DNA from: Planctomyces sp. SH-PL62
GTDB lineage: Bacteria > Planctomycetota > Planctomycetia > Planctomycetales > Planctomycetaceae
DNA length: 41,281 bases
Direction of reading: 5' to 3'
NCBI GenBank assembly: GCA_945905295.1
Contig: CAMDPX010000041.1
Span: forward strand, 1-41,281
Position 1 is the stretch's first letter. The number at the start of each line of letters is the position of its first letter. The notes under the pieces are model-generated. The model was not told where the DNA came from, did not search any database, and saw only the letters and a program-made list of their open reading frames with translations. Both the position numbers and the translations under genes were made by a program. This document shows, in pieces, positions 4,059-40,352 of this stretch.

Positions 4059-4150
4059 GGATTCGCTTCAACTGGAGTTGGCCGAGAAGCTTGATGGTTG
4101 GGGAGTTGTCGCGGTTGGGGTGAGTTCTGGCGAGGTCGAACAGGACACTC

Positions 4151-4238
4151 TTCGCACACGGATGCGAGAGGTACACACGGATGAAGGCAAGGTGACGGCA
4201 TCGTTCATCCGTGTGTACCTCTCGCATCCGTGTGCGAA
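4151..4238. repeat. Perfect 35-bp inverted repeat in a divergent intergenic region
   Basis: Arms 4151-4185 and 4204-4238 are exact reverse complements over 35 bp with an 18-base loop. Each arm carries CACGGATG twice, as does the arm of the repeat at 23881-23962. It sits between the divergent M28 peptidase and DUF1501 genes, so it probably lies near or in their promoters. The other parts of the 4059-4337 gap show only the ribosome binding site GGAGGAGGT at about 4324-4332. Confidence 0.92.
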
Positions 4239-4337
4239 GTCATCCACCAAATTTCCGCAGACAGTCTTGATCAGCCGCAGAGAATCCGGCATCGTGTAGC
4301 CCGCAACGAACCAGCAGTCTCCCGGAGGAGGTGCGGC

Positions 4338-5711
4338 ATGATTGAACTCGGACGAAGAGCAACTCGCGATTGCCAGGGCCTGAGCCGCCGAGCGTTGTTG
4401 CAAATGGGAGCGTGCTCGGCGCTCGGCCTGTCGCTGCCACAACTATTGGCGCGGAGCGCGGCCGCCGAATCGAGCCCCGCGGTGAAGTCCGTTTTGCTCC
4501 TCTGGATGTGGGGTGGTCCTAGTTCGTATGAGATGTGGGATTCAAAACCAAACGCGCCGTCGAAGATTCGTGGTTGCTACGGTCCGATCGCGACCGCCTC
4601 GCCGGGAATGCAGATCAGCGAACTGTTGCCGATGTGCGCGGAGAACTCGCGGCTGTTCACGATCATCCGCAGCATGGCTCACGACATGAAGGACCATAAC
4701 CAGGGAGGCACGGTCGCGCTGACCGGCAGCACCAACGGATCGCAGGCTTCCGGAGGCATTCCTTTTCCTGGTCGAGTTCGGCCTAGCATGGGATCGCTGG
4801 TGTCGTATCTGACTCGCCGCCGATCGGGTGATTGGCCGGCTTTCACGACGATCGGTCCTAATTGCAAAGTCAGCGGAGCCGATCTGCGCGGGCAATTGGC
4901 CGGAGCACTGGGTGCCGCTCACGATCCGTTCCGCATCGACAGCTTCACTCATGAGGATGGCTTCAAGATTCCGCCGTCGATTGAGCCGCTGGCTGGAATC
5001 GGTGGCTCGCGACTGAACGATCGCAAATCGCTGCTTGCCGGATTGGATGACATTCAGCGACGAACCGAAGCGGCGGATGCCACGCGATTCGACGACTTGC
5101 AACGCAAAGCGTTTGGATTGTTGACCTCCGCCAGCGCGAAGCGAGCGTTGAATGTCGATGAAGAATCCGAGTCATTGCGTGAGCGATACGGTTACACGGT
5201 CTTCGGTCAGAATTGTCTGCTCGGCCGGCGATTGATTGAGGCGGGGGTGCCGTTCGTCCAAGTCAATTGGAGCGGCGACGCGGAAGACGAACAGCAAGGC
5301 GGCGATGGCGGCTGGGATTTGCACTATCGCTTGTTCGAGCGGATGCAGGATCGCTTCTGCCCGATCTTCGATCGCACCTTCACCGCATTGCTGACCGATC
5401 TCGAGTCGCGCGGCCAGTTGGCATCGACGTTGGTGATCGCGATGGGCGAGTTCGGTCGCAGTCCAGAAATCAGCAGCATCGGCGGCCGAGAACATTGGCC
5501 ATTCGGCTACTCGATTGTTGTCGCGGGCGGCGGCACTCCAGGCGGAACCGTGATCGGTTCGAGCACTGCCGATGGTGGCTACCCCGCGTCGCGCCCGATC
5601 CATCCGGTTGATCTGCATGTCACGGTGCTCGAAAAGATGGGGCTCGACAAATTGGAGTTGTTCGTCAAAGGCTCCGAAGTCCTGGGCACGCCGATTGGTG
5701 AGTTGGGATGA
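4338..5711 (+). CDS. DUF1501 secreted protein (first of three)
   Basis: A 457-residue DUF1501 protein, a family with a sulfatase/alkaline phosphatase-like fold, very abundant in planctomycetes and usually exported. The start at 4338 follows a strong GGAGGAGGT site; the ORF is open upstream but that part lies over the intergenic region. The N-terminus has a Tat-like signal, SRRALLQMGACSALGLSLPQ (residues 16-35). Family hallmarks are WMWGGPSSYEMWDSKP, LLPMCAENSRLFTIIRSM, MGEFGRSPEI and GREHWP. The biochemical role of the family is not established; many members are encoded with DUF1549/DUF1553 proteins, but here the partners are a PD40/LamG protein, whose ATG overlaps this stop, and a HEAT-like protein. 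Confidence 0.9.
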   Translation: MIELGRRATRDCQGLSRRALLQMGACSALGLSLPQLLARSAAAESSPAVKSVLLLWMWGGPSSYEMWDSKPNAPSKIRGCYGPIATASPGMQISELLPMCAENSRLFTIIRSMAHDMKDHNQGGTVALTGSTNGSQASGGIPFPGRVRPSMGSLVSYLTRRRSGDWPAFTTIGPNCKVSGADLRGQLAGALGAAHDPFRIDSFTHEDGFKIPPSIEPLAGIGGSRLNDRKSLLAGLDDIQRRTEAADATRFDDLQRKAFGLLTSASAKRALNVDEESESLRERYGYTVFGQNCLLGRRLIEAGVPFVQVNWSGDAEDEQQGGDGGWDLHYRLFERMQDRFCPIFDRTFTALLTDLESRGQLASTLVIAMGEFGRSPEISSIGGREHWPFGYSIVVAGGGTPGGTVIGSSTADGGYPASRPIHPVDLHVTVLEKMGLDKLELFVKGSEVLGTPIGELG

Positions 5712-7420
5712 TGGTTGAGTTCAAAGGGAAAGTGCCCGACGAATCGAAGGAGACGACGAATGACACAAGCCCATTCGTCGTCTCCTTCGATTCGTCGGGC
5801 ACCTTCCTTTTCCCCCTTCTGATCCTCGCGTTAACCCTATCGCCGCACATTCGTGCCGACGAACCAGCACCGTCGGTCACTCGACTGACGAAAACGCATT
5901 ACTCCAAATTCTTCCTGCGCTATTCGCCGACCGGCACGCACATCGTCTATTCACGCCACTATGCGAATCGCCGAGCGGCCAATCAGATTCTGGTTGGCTT
6001 GCATCTCGTCAAAGCGGACGGCACCGATGATCGACGATTGCTGGCCGAGTTCGATCGCGAAGTGCAAATCCAAGAGCATCCGGCTTGGTCGCCGGACGGC
6101 AAGCAACTGATCCTCTCCGGCGGAGGCAACGACACCGGTAACTCGTCGAAGGACACGTTCGTCTGCGACGTCGATCTCGAATTCAAATCGACGCGATTAC
6201 GAAAGCTCATCCCCAGCCAGGGAGTGAGTATTGGCGAAGAGCCCTGTTGGTCACCCGATGGCAAACGGCTCTGCGCGGTCAGCATCACCGAGCGATTGTT
6301 TGTCGTCGATGCCGACGGCAAGAACCTTGCGCAGATCGTGCAGGTCGATGGCTCGTACTGCCATCAACCCGATTGGTCCCCCGATGGAGAGTGGATCGCG
6401 TTCGCCACCGATCGCGACGGCAACATCGAGATCTACAAAGTCCGCCCCGACGGCACCGAGTTGACGCGGCTCACGCAATCGCCCGGTCTCGACGCGCACC
6501 CGCGCTGGTCGCCTGATGGCCGCTGGCTCAGCTTCACCTCGAATCGTTCCGGCAACTACGACATCTGGGTGATGCGAGCCGATGGCAGCGATCTGCGCAA
6601 TCTGACAAAGCACTCGTCGACCGACGACCAAGCCGCCTGGTCACCCGATGGCAAATCCCTCGCGTTCGTTTCCATGCGCGACGGAGGCTTCGACATCTAT
6701 CGCATGCCGGTGCCGACCGAATTGGCCGTTGCGGACAGACCGGCGGTGAAACCGGCTGAGCCTGCGACGAAACCTGCCGACGAACTTGTGCTGCGTTACT
6801 CGTTCGACGAGTTGACTGATCAGTCCACATTGGCGAAAGACTACGCGGGCCGGCATCCGTTGGAGTTGAAGGGAGCCAAGCCGATCAGCGTTGCGACAGG
6901 CAGATCCGCACTGCTCTTCGATGGGAAAGCCAGCTTCGCCCCTGCTGGCAATGCGACGACGCTGAGATTGACCGGACCGCTCACGATTTCGTTGTGGGTG
7001 CGACCGGAGTCTGCGACGGGCAATGGCTATCTCGTGTCGAAACACGGATGGAATATCTACCTCGGCGCGGATGCGATCCCGCGTTTTGAAACACGCACGG
7101 CCGAAGACAAAGCCTGGGACACGCTCGCCGCGAAAAAACCGCTGGGGGCAAAAACTTGGTCGATGGTCACGGTGATCTTCGATCCGAAAGTGGGTCACAA
7201 GCGGATCTACATCAATGGCGAGCTCTCTGCGGAATCGCCGCGTTCTGACGGCGCTATCGGAGCCGCCGTTGGATACCCGCTCGAATTTGGTCACTACGTC
7301 GCGAGCAAGACGCAGTGGTTCCACGGACAACTCGACGAGATCCGCCTTGCCGCAGTGGCTTGGTCCGCAGAACGAGTCGCCAAAGAGTACGAGCAACAAC
7401 GGAAGCTCGTCTCACCCTAA
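5708..7420 (+). CDS. Secreted TolB-like PD40 beta-propeller with C-terminal LamG domain
   Basis: A 570-residue protein. Five PD40-type blades are marked by WSPDG at about residues 128, 182, 223, 267 and 311, with typical FATDRDGNIEIY and FTSNRSGNYDIWVM follow-ups. A concanavalin-like LamG domain spans about 359-565. The hydrophobic signal core FLFPLLILALTL comes only at residues 33-44, with probable cleavage after HIRA. The first 30 residues are encoded by a 31-bp perfect inverted repeat (5732-5802), so the native start was probably close to the signal peptide and has been pushed upstream by an insertion. The ATG overlaps the DUF1501 stop by 4 bp, which indicates coupled translation. A role in binding exported glycans or proteins is only inference. 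Confidence 0.82.
   Translation: MMVEFKGKVPDESKETTNDTSPFVVSFDSSGTFLFPLLILALTLSPHIRADEPAPSVTRLTKTHYSKFFLRYSPTGTHIVYSRHYANRRAANQILVGLHLVKADGTDDRRLLAEFDREVQIQEHPAWSPDGKQLILSGGGNDTGNSSKDTFVCDVDLEFKSTRLRKLIPSQGVSIGEEPCWSPDGKRLCAVSITERLFVVDADGKNLAQIVQVDGSYCHQPDWSPDGEWIAFATDRDGNIEIYKVRPDGTELTRLTQSPGLDAHPRWSPDGRWLSFTSNRSGNYDIWVMRADGSDLRNLTKHSSTDDQAAWSPDGKSLAFVSMRDGGFDIYRMPVPTELAVADRPAVKPAEPATKPADELVLRYSFDELTDQSTLAKDYAGRHPLELKGAKPISVATGRSALLFDGKASFAPAGNATTLRLTGPLTISLWVRPESATGNGYLVSKHGWNIYLGADAIPRFETRTAEDKAWDTLAAKKPLGAKTWSMVTVIFDPKVGHKRIYINGELSAESPRSDGAIGAAVGYPLEFGHYVASKTQWFHGQLDEIRLAAVAWSAERVAKEYEQQRKLVSP
5732..5802. repeat. Perfect 31-bp inverted repeat at the start of a coding sequence
   Basis: Arms 5732-5762 and 5772-5802 are exact reverse complements with a 9-base loop; weaker pairing continues outward to about 5727 and 5807. 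The hairpin is translated as residues about 9-32 of the PD40/LamG protein, between start codon and signal peptide. A stem this long close to the start codon could affect translation. Confidence 0.92.
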
Positions 7421-12366: not shown

Positions 12367-12432
12367 GCGCTGGTAGTGACCCGATTAATCGGGTCTTCGG
12401 AGCGACCGCATGAATGCGGTCACTACGAGCGC
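12367..12432. repeat. Palindromic repeat between convergent genes, same family as 1681-1748
   Basis: Outer arms GCGCTGGTAGTG and CACTACGAGCGC (one mismatch) enclose two hairpins, GACCCGATTAATCGGGTC and GACCGCATGAATGCGGTC. The design is the same as at 1681-1748. It fills the gap between the convergent esterase and propeller genes. Confidence 0.85.
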
Positions 12433-13478: not shown

Positions 13479-14471
13479 ATGAAGATCGTCATCCCAGGCG
13501 GCAGCGGTCAGGTCGGGACTGTGTTGGCTCGTGCGTTTGTCGCCGATGGGCATGAAGTCGTGGTACTCAGCCGAAGCCCGTGGCCGACGCTGCCAGCGTC
13601 GGCGCAAACGGACGCTGGCAGCGTCCGCCACGTCGAATGGGACGGCGAGACGATGGGACGCTGGACGACCGAACTCGACGGGACTGACGTCGTCATCAAC
13701 CTGGCTGGCCGCAGTGTCAACTGCCGATATGGTGCGAGGAATCGGCGCGAGATCAAAGAATCGCGTGTGAAGTCCACACGAGCCGTCGGACAAGCAATTG
13801 CCGAGGCAAAACATCCTCCGCGAGTTTGGCTGCAAGCGAGCACCGCCACGATTTACGCACATCGCTACGACGCTGCGAACGACGAAGCGACCGGCATCAT
13901 CGGTGGCAACGAACCGGACTCGCCCGACACTTGGCGATTCAGCATCGACGTGGCCAAGTCGTGGGAGCAGGCCACCATTGAAGCGGTCACTCCGCAAACT
14001 CGGCAAGTGCTGCTGCGATCGGCCATCACGATGAGTCCCGATCGCGGCGGTGCGTTCGATTACCTACTGCGTTTGGTGCGCTGGGGCCTGGGAGGAAAAC
14101 ACGGCGACGGACGACAGTTTGTCTCATGGATTCACGACCGCGACTTCGTGCGAGCGATCTACTGGCTGATCGCGCATGACCTCTCTGGTCCCGTCAACTT
14201 GGCATCGCCGAACCCGCTGCCGAACAGCGACTTCATGCGTCAATTGCAAAACGCTTGGGGCATTCGCATCGGCTTGCCCGCAACGAAGTGGATGCTGGAG
14301 ATCGGCACATGTCTGATGCGATCGGAAAGCGAACTGGTGCTGAAGAGCCGCCGTGTCATCCCCAGCCGAATGCTGGCCTCTGGATTTGAATTCGAGTTCC
14401 CAACGTGGGCCGACGCGGCTCAGGATTTGTGCGATCGTTGGAGGGGAATCCATCGGTCCGACCAGTCGTAG
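13479..14471 (+). CDS. TIGR01777-family NAD(P)-dependent epimerase (SDR39U1/YfcH-like)
   Basis: A 330-residue atypical SDR enzyme. The nucleotide-binding motif PGGSGQVG is at residues 6-13. The family segments VVINLAGRSVNCRY, NRREIKESRVKSTRAVG, VWLQASTATIYAHR and the C-terminal VNLASPNPLPNSDFM (DUF1731-like end) are all present. The substrate of this family is unsettled. Residues about 34-51 (SPWPTLPASAQTDAGSVR) are an extra loop encoded by an inverted repeat at 13579-13632. The ATG at 13479 has GGAAGG at 13465-13470. The last 52 bp overlap the end of the convergent transferase gene, a rather long tail-to-tail overlap. Confidence 0.88.
   Translation: MKIVIPGGSGQVGTVLARAFVADGHEVVVLSRSPWPTLPASAQTDAGSVRHVEWDGETMGRWTTELDGTDVVINLAGRSVNCRYGARNRREIKESRVKSTRAVGQAIAEAKHPPRVWLQASTATIYAHRYDAANDEATGIIGGNEPDSPDTWRFSIDVAKSWEQATIEAVTPQTRQVLLRSAITMSPDRGGAFDYLLRLVRWGLGGKHGDGRQFVSWIHDRDFVRAIYWLIAHDLSGPVNLASPNPLPNSDFMRQLQNAWGIRIGLPATKWMLEIGTCLMRSESELVLKSRRVIPSRMLASGFEFEFPTWADAAQDLCDRWRGIHRSDQS
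13579..13632. repeat. In-frame palindromic insert, GACGCTGGCAGCGTC family
   Basis: Arms 13579-13600 and 13611-13632 are reverse complements with one mismatch in 22. The unit spans 54 bp, 18 codons, and is translated inside the epimerase without breaking the frame. Confidence 0.88.
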
Positions 14472-23785: not shown

Positions 23786-23880
23786 TGACGCAGCACTAAT
23801 GCCACAGATCAGAATTAGCCTTCCACCAGAACCATCGTTGGTTGCCTGCTGATCAAAACGAAATTTTTAGACCGACTGAT

Positions 23881-23962
23881 CCCCACGGATGGCATGGCGA
23901 CACCACGGATAAAGCAGTGTTTCTCGTTTTTCATCCGTGGTGTCGCCATGCCATCCGTGGGG
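23881..23962. repeat. Perfect 30-bp inverted repeat upstream of the MscS gene
   Basis: Arms 23881-23910 and 23933-23962 are exact reverse complements with a 22-base loop. Like the 4151-4238 repeat, each arm contains CACGGAT twice, around a different core (GGCATGGCGACAC here). Confidence 0.92.
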
Positions 23963-24083
23963 AGTTTAGGGCTCCATAACAGTTCAATTGCGATCTGTGG
24001 CACCAGGCTGCGGGGCAGCAACCAGAGGCTCGGCTTTTTAGAAAAGCGCGGCACTTTGGTCCGTTTTCAATGGGAGATTCAGA

Positions 24084-26616: not shown

Positions 26617-28521
26617 ATGAATAATCTCCCCCCTGCTCTGCTGGCCGCGGGTGACACGGCCACGATGCCAAGCGTCGGCTACGGTGCGTTGATCGCGCTC
26701 GTGGGATTCATCTTCGCGAGCTTGTGGATTGGCGCGTTGGCCAATCGCAAGACGCGCGAAGGCTCGTTCATGACCGGGTTCTTCCTGGGCAATCGCGGCT
26801 TGGGCGCGTGGGCGCTCGCGCTGACCGCGACCGTGCAAAGCGGCGGGACGTTCATGGGGTTTCCGTCGCTGGTCTACACGCACGGCTGGATCGTCGCGCT
26901 GTGGATCGGCGGCTACATCGTGGTGCCGATCACCGGTTTTGGCATTCTCGGCAAACGACTCGCACAGCTCAGTCGCCGCACCGAGGCGATCACTGTCCCC
27001 GATCTGTTTCGTGCGCGATTCGGCAGCCCGGCCTTGGGACTGGTCGCGTCGTTGTTCATTCTGCTGTATTTGTCCTTCATGATGTTCGCGCAGTTCAAAG
27101 CGGGCGCGATCGTGATGAAGACGGCTTGGCCCGGCTCCGGCGTGCTGTCGGTCAATGAAGATCAAAAGCCGTTCGCCCTCTCCACGAATTCCCTGAGTGC
27201 CTTGAAAGAGGATCGTGTCCCCGATTCGGTGATCGAAAAGTTGACGCCGTTGGTCGGTCACGGTTTCTCGACGGAACGAGATCTGGCCTCGCAACTCAAG
27301 TCGCTGCTCACCGCCGAGGAGTTGACCGAGTCGAAAGACCGCATCGTCAAACGCTCGAAACAATTGGACCGGCTGTACCTCTACGGCCTGGCGATTTTCT
27401 CGTTGACGGTCGTGGCCTACACGCTGATGGGGGGCTTCCTCGCGGCCGTGTGGACGGACATGTTTCAAAGCGTGCTGATGTTCTTCGGCGTGATGGTGCT
27501 GCTGTTCGCGTCGTTGCATCAGGCCGGTGGCTTGGAGAACGCGACTCGCACGGCTTTGAAGAACACCGGGCCGGGCTATGTCTACGGCCCCGGCTACGAC
27601 GATCGGTTCGAGGGTCCGAAGGCCGCCCCGAATGCGAAGACCGCGCCGCGCTTGGCTTATGACGCCGAGGTGCCTCGCGAGTTTCTGCCGCTGTCGCTGG
27701 CTCTGTCGTTCTTCTGCGTGTGGGTGTGGAGTGGCGTTGGTTCGCCAGCGAGCTTGGTGCGGCTGATGGCCAGCCAGAACACGCAGGTCATTCGCCGTTC
27801 GATCTATTTGCTGAGCGTCTACAACTTGGGGATCTATCTGCCGTTGATCGTGATCTGCATCTGCGGCCGAGCGTTGATCCCCGAACTGCCAGGACAAACC
27901 GACGAGATCATCCCGCGCATGGCGTTGCTTTCGACGAAGGATTGGCCGGGCGGTTCGTTAATCGCCGGAATGATCCTCGCCGCTCCGTTCGGAGCGGTGA
28001 TGTCCACGGTCAGTTCTTATCTGGTTGTGCTGTCGTCGGGCCTGGTGCGTGACATCTACCAACGCTTCATCCGTCCTCAGGCGACACCGGGCGAGCTTCG
28101 CAAAGCCGCCTACCTCTCGATGGTTTTCGTCGGTGCGGTGGCGGTGGTCGTAAACATCAGCCCGGTCGCATATCTCCAAGCGTTCATCGTCTTCAGCTCG
28201 ACCGGCTCGGCCGCGACCTTTCTGATTCCCGCCATCATGGCCTGCTACTGGCGACGGGCCACCGTTGCCGGCGCACTCGCCGGCATGATTGGTGGTGCCT
28301 CAACGGTCCTGTCCCTGTACTTGCTCGGCATCCTCGAGAAGACGCCCGAACAACGCATCGGGCAACTCACCAGCTTCCGTCCGTATTATCTGTGCGACGT
28401 CGACCCGTTCTTGTGGGGGGTCTTGGTCTCCGGCCTGTTCAGCGTCGGCGTGAGCCTGCTGACCTCGCCACCGGACGAGGCGCTGGTCTCAAAGATGTTC
28501 GACAAGGAACCCGCAAAGTAG
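26617..28521 (+). CDS. Sodium:solute symporter family (SSS) transporter
   Basis: A 634-residue transporter with about thirteen hydrophobic segments. The start AALIALVGFIFASLWIGA, the FFLGNRGLGAWALALTATVQ segment (the N-terminal sodium-binding region), VYTLMGGFLAAVWTDMFQSV and SGLVRDIYQRF are typical of SSS proteins of the PanF type. The substrate could be pantothenate or another carboxylate or sugar; the sequence does not decide. A hydrophilic insert of about 80 residues, including SVNEDQKPFALSTNSL and SLLTAEELTESKDRIVKR, interrupts a loop that is short in ordinary members. The last two codons lie in the arm of a 20-bp inverted repeat. Confidence 0.88.
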   Translation: MNNLPPALLAAGDTATMPSVGYGALIALVGFIFASLWIGALANRKTREGSFMTGFFLGNRGLGAWALALTATVQSGGTFMGFPSLVYTHGWIVALWIGGYIVVPITGFGILGKRLAQLSRRTEAITVPDLFRARFGSPALGLVASLFILLYLSFMMFAQFKAGAIVMKTAWPGSGVLSVNEDQKPFALSTNSLSALKEDRVPDSVIEKLTPLVGHGFSTERDLASQLKSLLTAEELTESKDRIVKRSKQLDRLYLYGLAIFSLTVVAYTLMGGFLAAVWTDMFQSVLMFFGVMVLLFASLHQAGGLENATRTALKNTGPGYVYGPGYDDRFEGPKAAPNAKTAPRLAYDAEVPREFLPLSLALSFFCVWVWSGVGSPASLVRLMASQNTQVIRRSIYLLSVYNLGIYLPLIVICICGRALIPELPGQTDEIIPRMALLSTKDWPGGSLIAGMILAAPFGAVMSTVSSYLVVLSSGLVRDIYQRFIRPQATPGELRKAAYLSMVFVGAVAVVVNISPVAYLQAFIVFSSTGSAATFLIPAIMACYWRRATVAGALAGMIGGASTVLSLYLLGILEKTPEQRIGQLTSFRPYYLCDVDPFLWGVLVSGLFSVGVSLLTSPPDEALVSKMFDKEPAK

Positions 28522-28674
28522 ACGAGTCACTCCGAGGCTGTGAAAGAATTGGTAGCTGAACTCGCCAGAGTTCAGTTTTCTCGGCGAATTCTGAAGTCTG
28601 GCGACTTCAGCGACCCAAAACTTCACAGGCTCTCCGTGACTCGAATTCGAGCCACGGAGTGACTCGTCTACTTT
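28515..28674. repeat. Large compound inverted repeat in a convergent gap
   Basis: Outer arms 28515-28534 and 28655-28674 are exact reverse complements over 20 bp. Nested inside are a GAGGCTGTGAA/TTCACAGGCTC pair with one mismatch and two small hairpins (CTGAACTC..GAGTTCAG and CTGAAGTC..GACTTCAG). It includes the stop of the symporter gene and ends at the stop of the convergent PPOX gene, so it fills the whole gap. Confidence 0.9.
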
Positions 28675-28675
28675 G

Positions 28676-30953: not shown

Positions 30954-31366
30954 GGCCAGAGACTTTCAAACTACGAACTTCACACCGCGCGAACAATCGG
31001 CTCTTAGGCGAGCGGGGCGGCGTCAGCCCCCAGTTTTCAACTGCCGTCGCAACCACCGGGGGGCTGACGCCGCCCCGCTCGCCATTTTTTCAATTGCACC
31101 GCGCGCAGGTCGGACCGCTCGCGGAAAATCCAGCGGGTGAAAGCTAGGTCACGCTCAGGAGATGTCAAACACGCCCGGCCCGCGAACTCGCACCGCTCAA
31201 TCGACACAACCGTCACGGTTCGCGGCGAGTGCAACTGCTCGCAGCGAGTTGAAAAGCCCGCATCGGCCAAATACTCTGTCCCCCTCCCACCCTGGAAACC
31301 ATTCGTGGCCGATTCGGCCGCGCTCATCCCTCTTCCCGCCTGGACTTGTAAGGAGATTGACTCACC
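30954..31366. other. 413-bp divergent intergenic region
   Basis: It contains the 24-bp palindrome listed separately and the start signals of two divergent units. A candidate plus-strand promoter has TTGAAA at 31249-31254, a 17-base spacer and TACTCT at 31272-31277, about 90 bp before the GTG at 31367; the -10 box matches only three of six consensus bases. AAGGAG stands at 31350-31355. Apparent ORFs across it look like shadows. Confidence 0.4.
31007..31083. repeat. Perfect 24-bp inverted repeat, GGCGAGCGGGGCGGCGTCAG family
   Basis: Arms 31007-31030 and 31060-31083 are exact reverse complements with a 29-base loop. A T-rich stretch (ATTTTTTC) follows the right arm. It lies in the divergent region before the AAA+ gene and the adenylating enzyme gene. 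Confidence 0.92.
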
Positions 31367-34483: not shown

Positions 34484-34542
34484 CCCGTAGCCGCGTCCGC
34501 CAGAACGCGGGTCGCCCGCACTCTGGCGAGTGCGGCTACGGG
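34484..34542. repeat. Palindromic repeat in a convergent gap, CCCGTAGCCGC family
   Basis: CCCGTAGCCGC (34484-34494) pairs perfectly with GCGGCTACGGG (34532-34542); inner parts (CGCCAGAA and TCTGGCG) pair partly. It fills the 88-bp gap between the convergent reductase and permease genes. Confidence 0.85.
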
Positions 34543-37934: not shown

Positions 37935-40352
37935 TCAGTCCCGCGTGATGAACTCATGCAGGTTGAGCACCACGCCGGCGAGATTTGCCCAACGCAACTT
38001 GTCGGCCGGCGGATCGTGTGAATCAAGGAATTGTTTCAACCGAGCCGTCTCGGCGTCGTTCGGATCGCGAGATAAGCACAACTGCACCGCGTCACGAATG
38101 CGTTCCTTGTCCGAACGTCCGACGTCGTGCTGAATGCGCTCGGCGAGCGCGGCGGCCATCTCGCCGAAGACCGGGTCGTTGAGCAACGTCAGCGCTTGCA
38201 GCGGCGTGTTCGATCGGTCGCGGCGCGTGCAGACATCGACCGGCGGCGGAGCATCAAACGTGATCCCCTGCGCGAACGGCGAGGTTCGCAGGATGAACGT
38301 GTAGAGGCCGCGTCGGTAGCGATCCGCGCCTTCGCTGGTCTTCCACGAATTGCTGCCGAAGGCTTCCATCGTGACTCGCTCGTGTTGCGGCGGAAAGACG
38401 CTCGGTCCGCCGAGCTTGCGGCTGAGCAGGCCGCTGACGGCAAGTGCCGCGTCTCGCACCGTCTCGGCGGGGACTCGCAAGCTGTTCTGTCTCGCGAGCA
38501 AGGCGTTGTTTGGATCGCGCATCGCGAGTTCCTCTCGCGGCCGTGACGATTGCCGGTACGTCGCCGACGTGACAATCAACCGGTGCATGCGCTTGACGTC
38601 CCAGCCGTAGGTCAGGCTTTCCAGCCTGACTCGATCGCTTCTCAACGCGTCGTCGCCCACCGGGTCAGGCTGGAAAGCCTGACCTACGAACTCCGCCGCG
38701 AGCCAATCGAGTAACTCCGGATGCGACGGCGGATCGCCGCGTGTGCCGAAGTCATCTGACGTCGCGACGAGACCTCGGCCGAAGAACTCCTGCCACATCC
38801 GGTTGACGGTGACTCGTGCCGTCAACGGGTTGTCGTGCGACACCAGCCAGCGAGCGAGCGCTAGTCGTGGCGGAGCCGACTTCTCGTGGAGCACGTTTTC
38901 AACGTGCTTCGATCCGGGCACGTTGAAAACGTGCCCCACGGAAGGCAACACCTTGGGAACTCCTGGCGCGACATCCGCACCACGGCCACGAAAGTCGCCA
39001 CGTTCGTGAATGTAAGTCTGTCGCGGAGCGAACGCCGCTTGCATCACCGGTGCTCGCGTGGCGTGCGCGGCAGCGAACTCTTTCTTCAACGCGACGAGTT
39101 TCTGTTGAAGCTCCGGCAGTTTCAGTTCGGCGAACTTCTTCGCGTCCACGATCGAGCCGTGCGCCAAGAAGTAATCGAGCCAGTCGTCCTGCTGACGCGG
39201 CGTTCGTTTGTCCCATGGAAGTCGCACGATCTCACAGCCTTCGAGTTGCCCTTCGCCCAAGTGGCCACCCCAGATCAGGCCGAGCACTTCCCACTGCCGA
39301 TCCCAGATATGGTCTTCGCCGGGATGAGCTGCGGCGTGCAGAGCTTTCGCTTCCCATTGCTTCTGGAGTTCGGTCAGCCCCGCGCGATACGGTTCGACGA
39401 TCTCGCACCGCCGCCGTTCGTACTCCGGCCGCGAGCGTTGATAGCCGGCGACTTCGTCCGGCAGCGGAGCGTCGATGTTGACCTCGTCGACATCATCAAA
39501 GAAGGCGTACAGCCGATAGAACTCCGCCTGAGTCAGCGGGTCGTACTTGTGATCGTGACACCTCGCGCATCCGACGGTCAGGCCGAGCCAAATCGTGCCG
39601 ACCATCGACGTCCGATCCACGATCTGCGCGACACGAAACTCTTCGAGGTCCGCGCCGCCCTCGCGGTTGCTGAGCGTCTGACGCAGGAAGCCAGTGCCGA
39701 GGATGCGGTCGAGCAACGCGCGATCTTCGGCGCGACGATCTTCGGTGAGCCGGAGGGCGTTAGCCCCCGGACGAATTGGAACGTTCGCCGCAGTCCGGGG
39801 GCTAACGCCCTCCGGCTCACCTGTGCTCATGAGATCCCCCGCCAACTGTCGCACTGTGAATTCATCGAACGGCAGATTGTCGTTGAGCATTCGCGTGAGC
39901 CAATCGCGATAGCGCCACGCGACCGGGCGTAACTGATCGGTCAAATGTCCGTCGCTGTCGCCGTAATGGCACAGATCGAGCCACGGCCGAGCCCACCGCT
40001 CCCCGTAATGCGGCGACGCGAGCAGCCGATCCACCAACCGCTCGTAAGCGTCCGGTTGCTCGTCGTGGACGAACGCCGCGACCTCCTCCGGCGTCGGCGG
40101 CAGCCCGATCAGGTCGAGCGTGATTCGCCGAATCAACGTGACTCGGTCGGCTTCCGGAGACGGCGCGACGTTCTCTTTCTCCAACCGCGCGAGCACGAAC
40201 GAGTCGCTGCCGTTTCGCGGCCAATCGGCTTGCCGAACTCGCGGCGGAGTCGGGCGAGTGATTTTGCGGAACGACCAATGCGGTTCGTCAGCAGCGAATG
40301 CCGTCGAGCAGAGCAGCACGACGAGCAGGCTTGGTTTGTGAATCCAATCCAT
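37935..40352 (-). CDS. DUF1549/DUF1553 (PSD1-type) cytochrome-like secreted protein
   Basis: An 805-residue exported protein. A signal peptide (PSLLVVLLCSTAFAA) covers residues 1-21. The DUF1549 part includes RRITLDLIGLPPTPEEVAAF, HYGERWARPWLDL and the heme-like motif CARCH (262-266) in GCARCHDHKYDPLTQ. The DUF1553 part includes RLALARWLVSHDNPLTARVT, NRMWQEFFGRGLV, GWDVKRMHRLIVTSATYRQSS and RSNTPLQALTLLNDPVF. Three palindromic repeats are translated inside it, at residues about 177-204, 471-489 and 556-582, each within an otherwise conserved stretch or its edge. The family's activity is unproven. I start at 40352; the gene begins 23 bp after the ParE-like toxin gene and may share its transcript. 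Confidence 0.92.
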   Translation of the reverse strand: MDWIHKPSLLVVLLCSTAFAADEPHWSFRKITRPTPPRVRQADWPRNGSDSFVLARLEKENVAPSPEADRVTLIRRITLDLIGLPPTPEEVAAFVHDEQPDAYERLVDRLLASPHYGERWARPWLDLCHYGDSDGHLTDQLRPVAWRYRDWLTRMLNDNLPFDEFTVRQLAGDLMSTGEPEGVSPRTAANVPIRPGANALRLTEDRRAEDRALLDRILGTGFLRQTLSNREGGADLEEFRVAQIVDRTSMVGTIWLGLTVGCARCHDHKYDPLTQAEFYRLYAFFDDVDEVNIDAPLPDEVAGYQRSRPEYERRRCEIVEPYRAGLTELQKQWEAKALHAAAHPGEDHIWDRQWEVLGLIWGGHLGEGQLEGCEIVRLPWDKRTPRQQDDWLDYFLAHGSIVDAKKFAELKLPELQQKLVALKKEFAAAHATRAPVMQAAFAPRQTYIHERGDFRGRGADVAPGVPKVLPSVGHVFNVPGSKHVENVLHEKSAPPRLALARWLVSHDNPLTARVTVNRMWQEFFGRGLVATSDDFGTRGDPPSHPELLDWLAAEFVGQAFQPDPVGDDALRSDRVRLESLTYGWDVKRMHRLIVTSATYRQSSRPREELAMRDPNNALLARQNSLRVPAETVRDAALAVSGLLSRKLGGPSVFPPQHERVTMEAFGSNSWKTSEGADRYRRGLYTFILRTSPFAQGITFDAPPPVDVCTRRDRSNTPLQALTLLNDPVFGEMAAALAERIQHDVGRSDKERIRDAVQLCLSRDPNDAETARLKQFLDSHDPPADKLRWANLAGVVLNLHEFITRD
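38607..38687. repeat. In-frame palindromic insert, GTCAGGCTGGAAAGCCTGAC family
   Basis: Arms 38607-38630 and 38664-38687 are exact reverse complements over 24 bp. The unit is 81 bp, 27 codons, and is read in the PSD1 gene as a segment starting VGQAFQPD. Similar VGQAFQPD strings are common in planctomycete proteins as far as I recall. Confidence 0.92.
38886..38939. repeat. In-frame palindromic insert, GCACGTTGAAAACGTGC family
   Basis: GCACGTTTTCAACGTGC at 38891-38907 is the exact reverse complement of GCACGTTGAAAACGTGC at 38918-38934; with the outer GTGGA/CCCAC it spans 54 bp, 18 codons. It is read as VGHVFNVP...HVENVLH in the PSD1 protein. The right arm recurs at positions 1-20. Confidence 0.92.
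39744..39821. repeat. In-frame palindromic insert, GGAGGGCGTTAGCCCCCGGA family
   Basis: Arms 39744-39771 and 39794-39821 are exact reverse complements over 28 bp. The unit is 78 bp, 26 codons, read in the PSD1 protein as GEPEGVSPRT...PGANALRLT between LMST and the region before ILGTGFLRQ. Confidence 0.93.

Follow-up and report, generated by a model that had tools for sequence, protein, structure and literature searches.

REPIN-type palindromes kept in frame at loops of PSD1 genes in a planctomycete genome

A gene encoding PSCyt2 (DUF1549) and PSD1 (DUF1553) domains on the reverse strand of a 41,281-nucleotide stretch of Planctomyces sp. SH-PL62 DNA (hereinafter the window; contig CAMDPX010000041.1 of assembly GCA_945905295.1, that is, contig 41 in an assembly of 8.6 Mb and 476 contigs) harbors three palindromes, denoted A, B and C. 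We ascribe a probability of about 0.85 to the interpretation that A and B are REPINs, that is, head-to-head pairs of repetitive extragenic palindromic (REP) sequences, and C is a REPIN-like pair, all spread by REP-associated tyrosine transposases (RAYTs), with survival within genes of those copies that keep the frame in tolerant loops. The gene call spans positions 37938-40352 and is stop-free despite the three palindromes, all of which are read through in one open frame, as had been asserted in a preceding interpretation of the letters of this DNA (the sequence-only reading). Outside the inserts, the host gene appears to be under purifying selection, judging by the ratio of nonsynonymous to synonymous substitution rates (dN/dS) of 0.14-0.18 in comparison with five genus mates, with the insert regions excluded.

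Three tagged-hairpin pairs and their copies

The inverted repeat of A occupies positions 38606-38688, with 28-nt arms at 96% identity (25 nt are perfect in a second inverted-repeat search); that of B, positions 38885-38940, with 23-nt arms at 96% identity, of which the inner 17 nt are perfectly paired; and that of C, positions 39744-39821, with perfect 29-nt arms. Three perfect palindromes with arms of 28, 17 and 24 bp had been described originally; three inverted repeats are indeed present and the arm lengths are close, but the full arms of A and B each contain a mismatch. Likewise, the spans, all previously given as multiples of three, remain so for A (81 bp) and B (54 bp) when measured from tag to tag and for the arms of C (78 bp), but not for C from tag to tag (76 bp). 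Every arm forms a small hairpin of its own, tagged at the outer end, and the two units of each pair are arranged head-to-head with the tags outside. The units consist of GTAG followed by GTCAGGCTTTCCAGCCTGAC in A, GTGG followed by [A/G]GCACGTTTTCAACGTGC in B, and GTGA followed by GCCGGAGGGCGTTAGCCCCCGG in C. The palindromes differ in sequence, as their earlier description as unrelated implied, but have one architecture in common.

The names BIME (bacterial interspersed mosaic element) or REPIN are applied to such a head-to-head pair of tagged hairpins (PMC3733652; PMC3116915). The inverted doublets described here, with an unpaired GTAG-like tag on a short hairpin in A (GTAG) and B (GTGG) and with numerous, chiefly extragenic copies, conform to the GTAG superfamily of these elements. 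In C, the hairpin is present but the tag is GTGA; GTGG and GTRG are described as tag variants, whereas GTGA is absent from the variants listed in section 5 of PMC3733652, and for this reason we call C only REPIN-like.

A search for inverted repeats detected 222 in 721,281 bp of the genome, including some low-complexity or minisatellite-like sequences that are not REPs (for example, L170, L177 18000 and the GLRVEG...PSTLNPQPST type found at both of the PSD1 loops discussed below), whereas 181,281 bp of a dinucleotide-shuffled control gave none, so that a chance origin is excluded. The arms are not unique in the genome, which contains 107 pattern copies of A, 230 of B and 31 of C (none for the reversed-pattern controls). 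In a survey of 36 genomes (12 members of the genus and 24 others) with looser patterns, A was present in 10 of the 12 genus members (218 units in the window genome and 0 to 158 in its mates) and, beyond these, in a single additional genus belonging to the same family (135 units in G019), with 0 in the remaining 23 genomes; B was present in all 12 genus members (275 in the window genome), with two copies in G019 and, again, 0 in the remaining 23.

Although genes account for 85% of the sequence, only 45 of the 222 inverted repeats are entirely contained in them, the other 177 lying outside genes or at gene ends; among loci partly selected for PSD1, 22 of 35 A copies and 25 of 33 B copies are extragenic. 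The density of inverted repeats is 80 per 280 kb, as estimated from the 14 survey stretches that had not been selected by earlier search matches (the remaining 20 of the 34 come from contigs chosen partly in this way). PSD1 genes are not the only hosts: the domain is found in 5 of the 30 insert-bearing genes that were scanned for domains (a few small or doubtful ones were excluded), and other genes in this set encode SecA, UvrA, gamma-glutamyltranspeptidase, glycosyltransferase 28 (MurG-like), QueG and HypF domains. Copy number and architecture can be considered demonstrated.

Turnover among orthologs and recurrent inserts in paralogs

In the alignment of the window gene with the orthologs from six genus mates, turnover is seen at all three sites. 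At site A, the same insert is present in two mates (L273, L274) and, as a worn copy, in G005 (L275), whereas G001 has a different hairpin, and G003 and G004 have no insert (L276 and L278 lack one of the A type). At site B, the B pair is found in the window gene only; G009 and G007 have a pair of family D there, and the remaining mates have other sequence. At site C, the window gene and three mates share pair C, G003 and G004 have a third kind of sequence, and G001 has a unit of another family that is identical to the unit flanking the RAYT gene L135 of the window genome; the sequence that stands in place of C is palindromic in L108 (the G001 locus) and in L109/L110. No family-A unit was found in G001 in the 36-genome pattern survey. 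The G001 ortholog (L108 / L277) also contains two in-frame TGA codons.

More distant homologs lack the inserts. Among 79 loci from named genomes, 42 cover at least 550 residues, five of these being genus mates (the 37 loci below that coverage, L277 included, were dropped), and the 37 others are placed outside the genus on the strength of their identity, 62% or less, compared to 75-86% for the mates. All 37 have a short canonical linker in place of insert A, and all 36 that cover site C lack insert C; at site B, several have longer linkers, but without B-type peptides. The possibility that the inserts are a conserved structural part of the protein is rejected on the evidence of these distant homologs. 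As the arms are not unique either, neither of the two outcomes named in the sequence-only reading as refuting it was observed. We take replacement at orthologous sites and absence from distant homologs to be demonstrated by these alignments.

Could the inserts nevertheless be functional protein segments maintained by selection? The retention of A-type inserts in three genus mates at a synonymous divergence (dS) of 0.38-0.53 from the window gene might be construed in this manner. However, the insert at site A is missing in two mates and in all of the distant homologs, unrelated peptides substitute for one another at sites B and C, the arms vary among the mates, and the inserts are modeled with low confidence, so we regard this explanation as most improbable. 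The structural model of the window protein (39 sequences) has a mean predicted local distance difference test (pLDDT) score of 77, with nine segments below 50, and the three longest internal segments of low pLDDT, residues 181-204, 470-489 and 557-580, correspond to inserts C (176-201), B (470-487) and A (554-580), respectively. The model places the inserts in predicted loops.

The window genome offers a much broader sample of the same domain. There are 117 matches to PF07587, which reduce to about 106 genes once the split ones are joined (ten break near profile positions 57-67 and one at position 90), and of these, 90 were read: 77 domains and 13 further genes, the latter obtained from 15 stretches, two of which repeated genes already in the set (16 of the approximately 106 genes were left out). 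The 77 domains contain 25 internal palindromic inserts, 10 at columns 63-66, after LDWLA-EF (loop 1), and 15 at columns 86-93, around YRQSS (loop 2), and none was detected elsewhere in the 287 PSD1 columns of these domains. The 13 further genes added two (L376, L383), both at column 88, for a total of 27 in 90 genes. In the model, both hotspots are inter-helix loops, loop 2 (residues 598-601) lying between helices 584-592 and 605-610. Family A accounts for 8 of the 10 palindromes detected in loop 1, along with two other kinds, and a ninth A insert is recognizable by its peptide in L181, where the partner arm was not detected; loop 2 contains A, F, REGEAPAEP, RRAGGVSPPV/QASGGRQPPG and other types. 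Not all loop inserts are REPs, some being palindromes of other make. Five PSD1 genes (L376, L380, L381, L382, L384) have inverted repeats immediately 3' of the stop codon, the usual location of REPs.

The nine paralogs with A in loop 1 are only 38-59% identical to one another, yet their upstream units are identical over the first 23 bases and, in all nine, the junction reads NTC|GTAG and falls on a codon boundary. In a tree of 63 PSD1 rows with the insert columns removed (14 of the 77 rows were dropped, 13 that belong to a distant subfamily and one that is a fragment), the presence of A takes 8 changes for 9 genes; of 200 shuffles of the labels, 143 required 9 changes, 50 required 8 and 7 required fewer, so that the scatter of A over the paralogs is about random, and a single A-bearing clade is rejected (p 2.2e-9). 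The tree, in which 17 of 60 inner branches are weak, goes far toward nesting the A-bearing genes among empty ones.

An insertion in an ancestral PSD1 gene that was inherited by the paralogs and homogenised by gene conversion could also yield identical 23-base units at one codon of such divergent genes, and the DNA immediately upstream (the LDWLA codons) is indeed conserved. Under this scenario, though, it is difficult to account for the scatter of A-bearing genes among uninserted paralogs, for the inter-arm spacers, which differ among the A-bearing genes, and for the presence of other families at the same site, and we consider it very unlikely. The scattered inserts favor repeated insertion over a single inherited one, and independent acquisition at one codon seems to us demonstrated.

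Reading frame, candidate movers and points against

For family A, 11 of 13 copies within genes are divisible by three in length when measured from tag to tag, compared to 5 of 22 outside (Fisher p 5e-4), and the commonest length outside genes is 82 bp; for family B, the respective counts are 8 of 8 and 13 of 25 (p 0.015), the commonest extragenic length, 63, being itself divisible by three. These counts exclude copies near locus ends (three of B, two of F and one of D), and the A copies in genes come mostly from PSD1, some having been chosen for that reason. The contrast in length between coding and non-coding palindromes that was proposed originally thus holds for A and B with more copies, but is weak in the window itself, where non-coding palindromes at 12373-12426 (54 bp), 4150-4239 (90), 23880-23963 (84) and 28514-28675 (162) are multiples of three as well, and fails for families D and F. 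The further suggestion that the units are open-framed by design has to be abandoned given that three of the six frames of the family-A unit contain a stop and that the commonest extragenic length of this family is 82 bp.

A search for PSD1 over short six-frame open reading frames found no gene among 90 in which the domain is split between frames. In a frame test based on codon scores, 15 of 31 same-strand cases were open, 5 stopped and 11 shifted; this test was judged too strict and replaced by gene calls, the 'inside' class of which is open by construction, so that the six-frame search is the less circular evidence. With this qualification, the sequence data demonstrate frame keeping.

Y1 transposase matches were found at fifteen places in the window genome (13 in one search and two in another). 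REP units of the same family, other than A, B or C, are present on both sides of three of these RAYTs (L135, L141, L142); the remaining places have REP units on one side or none, L140 being preceded by a single B-like unit (GTGGAGCACGATTCCATCGTGCTC). In sister species, the RAYT L261 sits between GTGGGGCAGGTTTTCAACCTGCCC pairs, which are B with one compensated pair, and L270 between A-like GTAGGACGGCCTTTCCAGGCCGTC pairs. Two 271-aa RAYT frames (L141:1432-2244, L142:135-947) include, near the N-terminus, a VGTESQPT stretch that is REP-encoded, so that these transposase genes overlap their REP.

Mobilisation in trans by RAYTs is likely from these sequence associations. The proposal of a REP-associated Y1 enzyme acting in trans is borne out insofar as RAYTs accompany other REPs in this genome and A-like and B-like ones in the sisters, although not by an exact A, B or C REPtron; the enzyme was also said to be so far unknown, which does not apply to RAYTs, a known class. 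That the palindromes are instead miniature inverted-repeat transposable elements (MITEs) of a classical DDE insertion sequence is, in our opinion, the least plausible alternative: they are, to be sure, inverted repeats present in many copies and without coding capacity of their own, but each arm forms a tagged hairpin, Y1 transposase genes are found between pairs built in the same way, and no obvious target duplication is seen by eye at sites A-C in the ortholog alignment, which is not a systematic comparison and lacks a near-identical empty site.

Several observations weigh against the RAYT-driven scenario or restrict it. No transposition was observed, and the support for mobility is comparative only. 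Within flanks of up to 1.5 kb, some of them ended by contig ends, no A or B units occur at the 15 Y1 places, no RAYT was found with exact A, B or C units beside it, and the weak Y1 fragment L143 has distant C-like units near it. Tag-to-tag multiples of three number 0 of 5 in genes and 1 of 6 outside for family F, and 0 of 2 and 9 of 17 for family D; since none of these genic lengths is divisible by three, the flanks have to make up the difference, and frame keeping in F and D depends on junctions that are not defined at the base level. One PSD1 copy (L239/L380) lacks the N-terminal part, with no REP pair at the break. The low pLDDT at the inserts may come in part from the thin alignment there. 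Twenty PSD1 domains from three sister species (about every seventh row of the listing, read for inserts only) gave just two inserts, at column 88 and at column 226, outside both loops, so the two loops are not the sole possible sites. Finally, family A prevails in hotspot 1 but accounts for only 2 of the 17 inserts in the mixed hotspot 2 (Fisher p 7e-4, with windows picked after inspection of the data), which implies that target preference also matters.

The last point leads to the most substantial rival explanation, that the hotspots are due more to target choice by the transposase (TTC|GT within conserved F-V codons) than to loop tolerance. A C immediately precedes the tag of 47 of 69 A units and 48 of 57 B units, 51 of 57 B units have T or A one base further upstream, hotspot 1 is dominated by a single family, and TTCGT is read at the site in some uninserted paralogs. 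On the other side of the ledger, the motif comprises two to three bases only and, when nothing but the survey is counted, is weaker for A (C precedes the tag of 13 of 25 units, compared to 45 of 54 for B), many families enter hotspot 2, and both hotspots are modeled as inter-helix loops. We therefore hold a predominant role of target choice to be unlikely. Taking the evidence together, we infer that RAYTs are the movers, that the inserts are neutral, and that tolerance rather than targeting is the principal cause of the hotspots.

The scenario of RAYT-driven spread can be spelled out as follows. Non-autonomous pairs of tagged hairpins would spread within a planctomycete genus, most likely through RAYT (Y1, HUH) transposases acting in trans; insertion would prefer short, family-specific flanks directly ahead of the tag, [T/C]C for A and [T/A]C for B, and the majority of copies would end up in intergenic regions. 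Genic copies would persist if their net effect on length leaves the frame intact, if both units are translated in a reading without stops, and if they sit in a surface loop that tolerates them. The roughly 106 PSD1 paralogs would then amount to a natural insertion scan, in which two loops of the domain are refilled repeatedly by different families. The original idea of mobile repeats that invade genes and are retained where they do no harm is supported in this form. A more ambitious version, in which REPINs are a standing source of PSD1/PSCyt2 loop diversification, with RAYT insertion steered to a few codon-phased sites, loops rewritten and some of the peptides perhaps put to use, strikes us as distinctly unlikely.

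Other palindromes, known systems and implications

The features of the window are collected in Table 1. Two further inverted repeats are of note: one with 40-bp arms at 5723-5811, at the start of the frame 5708-7420, translation of which would make it the N-terminus of the product, and the 162-bp repeat at 28514-28675, which encloses a smaller palindrome and lies between the 3' ends of two convergent genes. Elsewhere in the genome, in-frame GMTNDE...IRHSSF stretches in two adjacent genes with YHS and Fer4 domains are palindromic GAATGACGAATGACGAA arrays (L170:3546-7362), and several palindromic inserts are found in UvrA-type genes (L177:13096-19999); uvrA is named among REP targets in PMC3733652.

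Table 1. Palindromic repeats and the host gene in the window
Feature	Position	Strand	Remarks
PSCyt2 (DUF1549) + PSD1 (DUF1553) gene, host of A, B and C	37935..40352	-	Pfam PSD1 7.8e-93, PSCyt2 2.4e-80
REPIN A	38607..38687		two head-to-head GTAGGTCAGGCTTTCCAGCCTGAC units, tag GTAG, 81 bp; peptide VGQAFQPD...VRLESLTY; PSD1 loop hotspot 1
REPIN B	38886..38939		two head-to-head GTGG[A/G]GCACGTTTTCAACGTGC units, 54 bp; peptide VGHVFNVP...HVENVLH; linker ahead of PSD1
REPIN-like pair C	39745..39820		two head-to-head GTGAGCCGGAGGGCGTTAGCCCCCGG units, tag GTGA; peptide GEPEGVSPRT...ALRLT; loop within PSCyt2 half
PSD1 loop hotspot 2 (RQSS)	38544..38555	-	vacant in window gene, occupied in 17 paralogs of the genome; coordinates derived by hand from residues 598-601
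Fourth in-frame palindrome	13579-13632		within epimerase-family gene; absent from the list of the sequence-only reading
Non-coding pair, family D (GGCGAGCGGGGCGGCGTCAGCCCC)	31007..31083		same kind replaces B in two genus mates
Non-coding pair, GTAGTGAC-type units	12373..12426		family flanking the RAYT gene at C42 (L135); one such unit at site C of the G001 ortholog
Non-coding GTAGCCGC-type pair	34486..34540		

How do these elements compare to those already known? GTAG-tagged REP/BIME/REPIN families and their RAYTs share with them the terminal GTAG/GTGG tag, the short hairpin, the head-to-head pairs, the hundreds of mostly extragenic copies and the REP-flanked RAYT genes (PMC3733652; PMC3116915). 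In-frame REPs in genes have been published, with planctomycetes among the named hosts, and the nearest case found is that of recB, in which two Xanthomonas species have different REPs at about the same position (PMC3733652, section 15). Unlike the published REPs, several families here keep returning to two loops of a single paralog family and show turnover between sister species.

Rickettsia palindromic elements (RPEs) are also palindromic repeats that form in-frame fusions with conserved proteins, a feature already published for them and present here; they are tolerated, and one such protein has been shown to be active (PMC2229807; PMC3733652). They differ in being 105-146 bp long or else CGTC-tagged repeats for which no associated transposase is reported (PMC3733652), and in the lack of a GTAG tag; the CGTC tag of the RPE-4/6 type is not found here, where the tags are GTAG, GTGG and GTGA. 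Correia/NEMIS and ERIC elements, which belong with MITEs, are small non-autonomous repeats as well, some of them in frame, but are described as terminal inverted repeats with a target duplication rather than paired tagged hairpins (PMC2229807). The class of element is known, and the recurrent loop hotspots are the new part. Among the matches listed from the open-licence literature, in which absence is weak evidence, there was no paper on REPs that repeatedly enter identical loops across a paralog family, nor on REPs in PSD1 genes.

For annotation, a warning is in order: where recurrent peptides such as VGQAFQPD or GHVFNVP turn up in this genus, they represent translated repeats rather than motifs of the proteins. 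In evolutionary terms, about 106 paralogs in one genome, exposed to several unrelated repeat families, constitute a natural insertion scan, in which two loops take every in-domain insert detected in 90 genes. The question of how a selfish palindrome turns into a protein segment becomes testable by counting, given that frame, stop content, loop tolerance and target choice are separable in this system.

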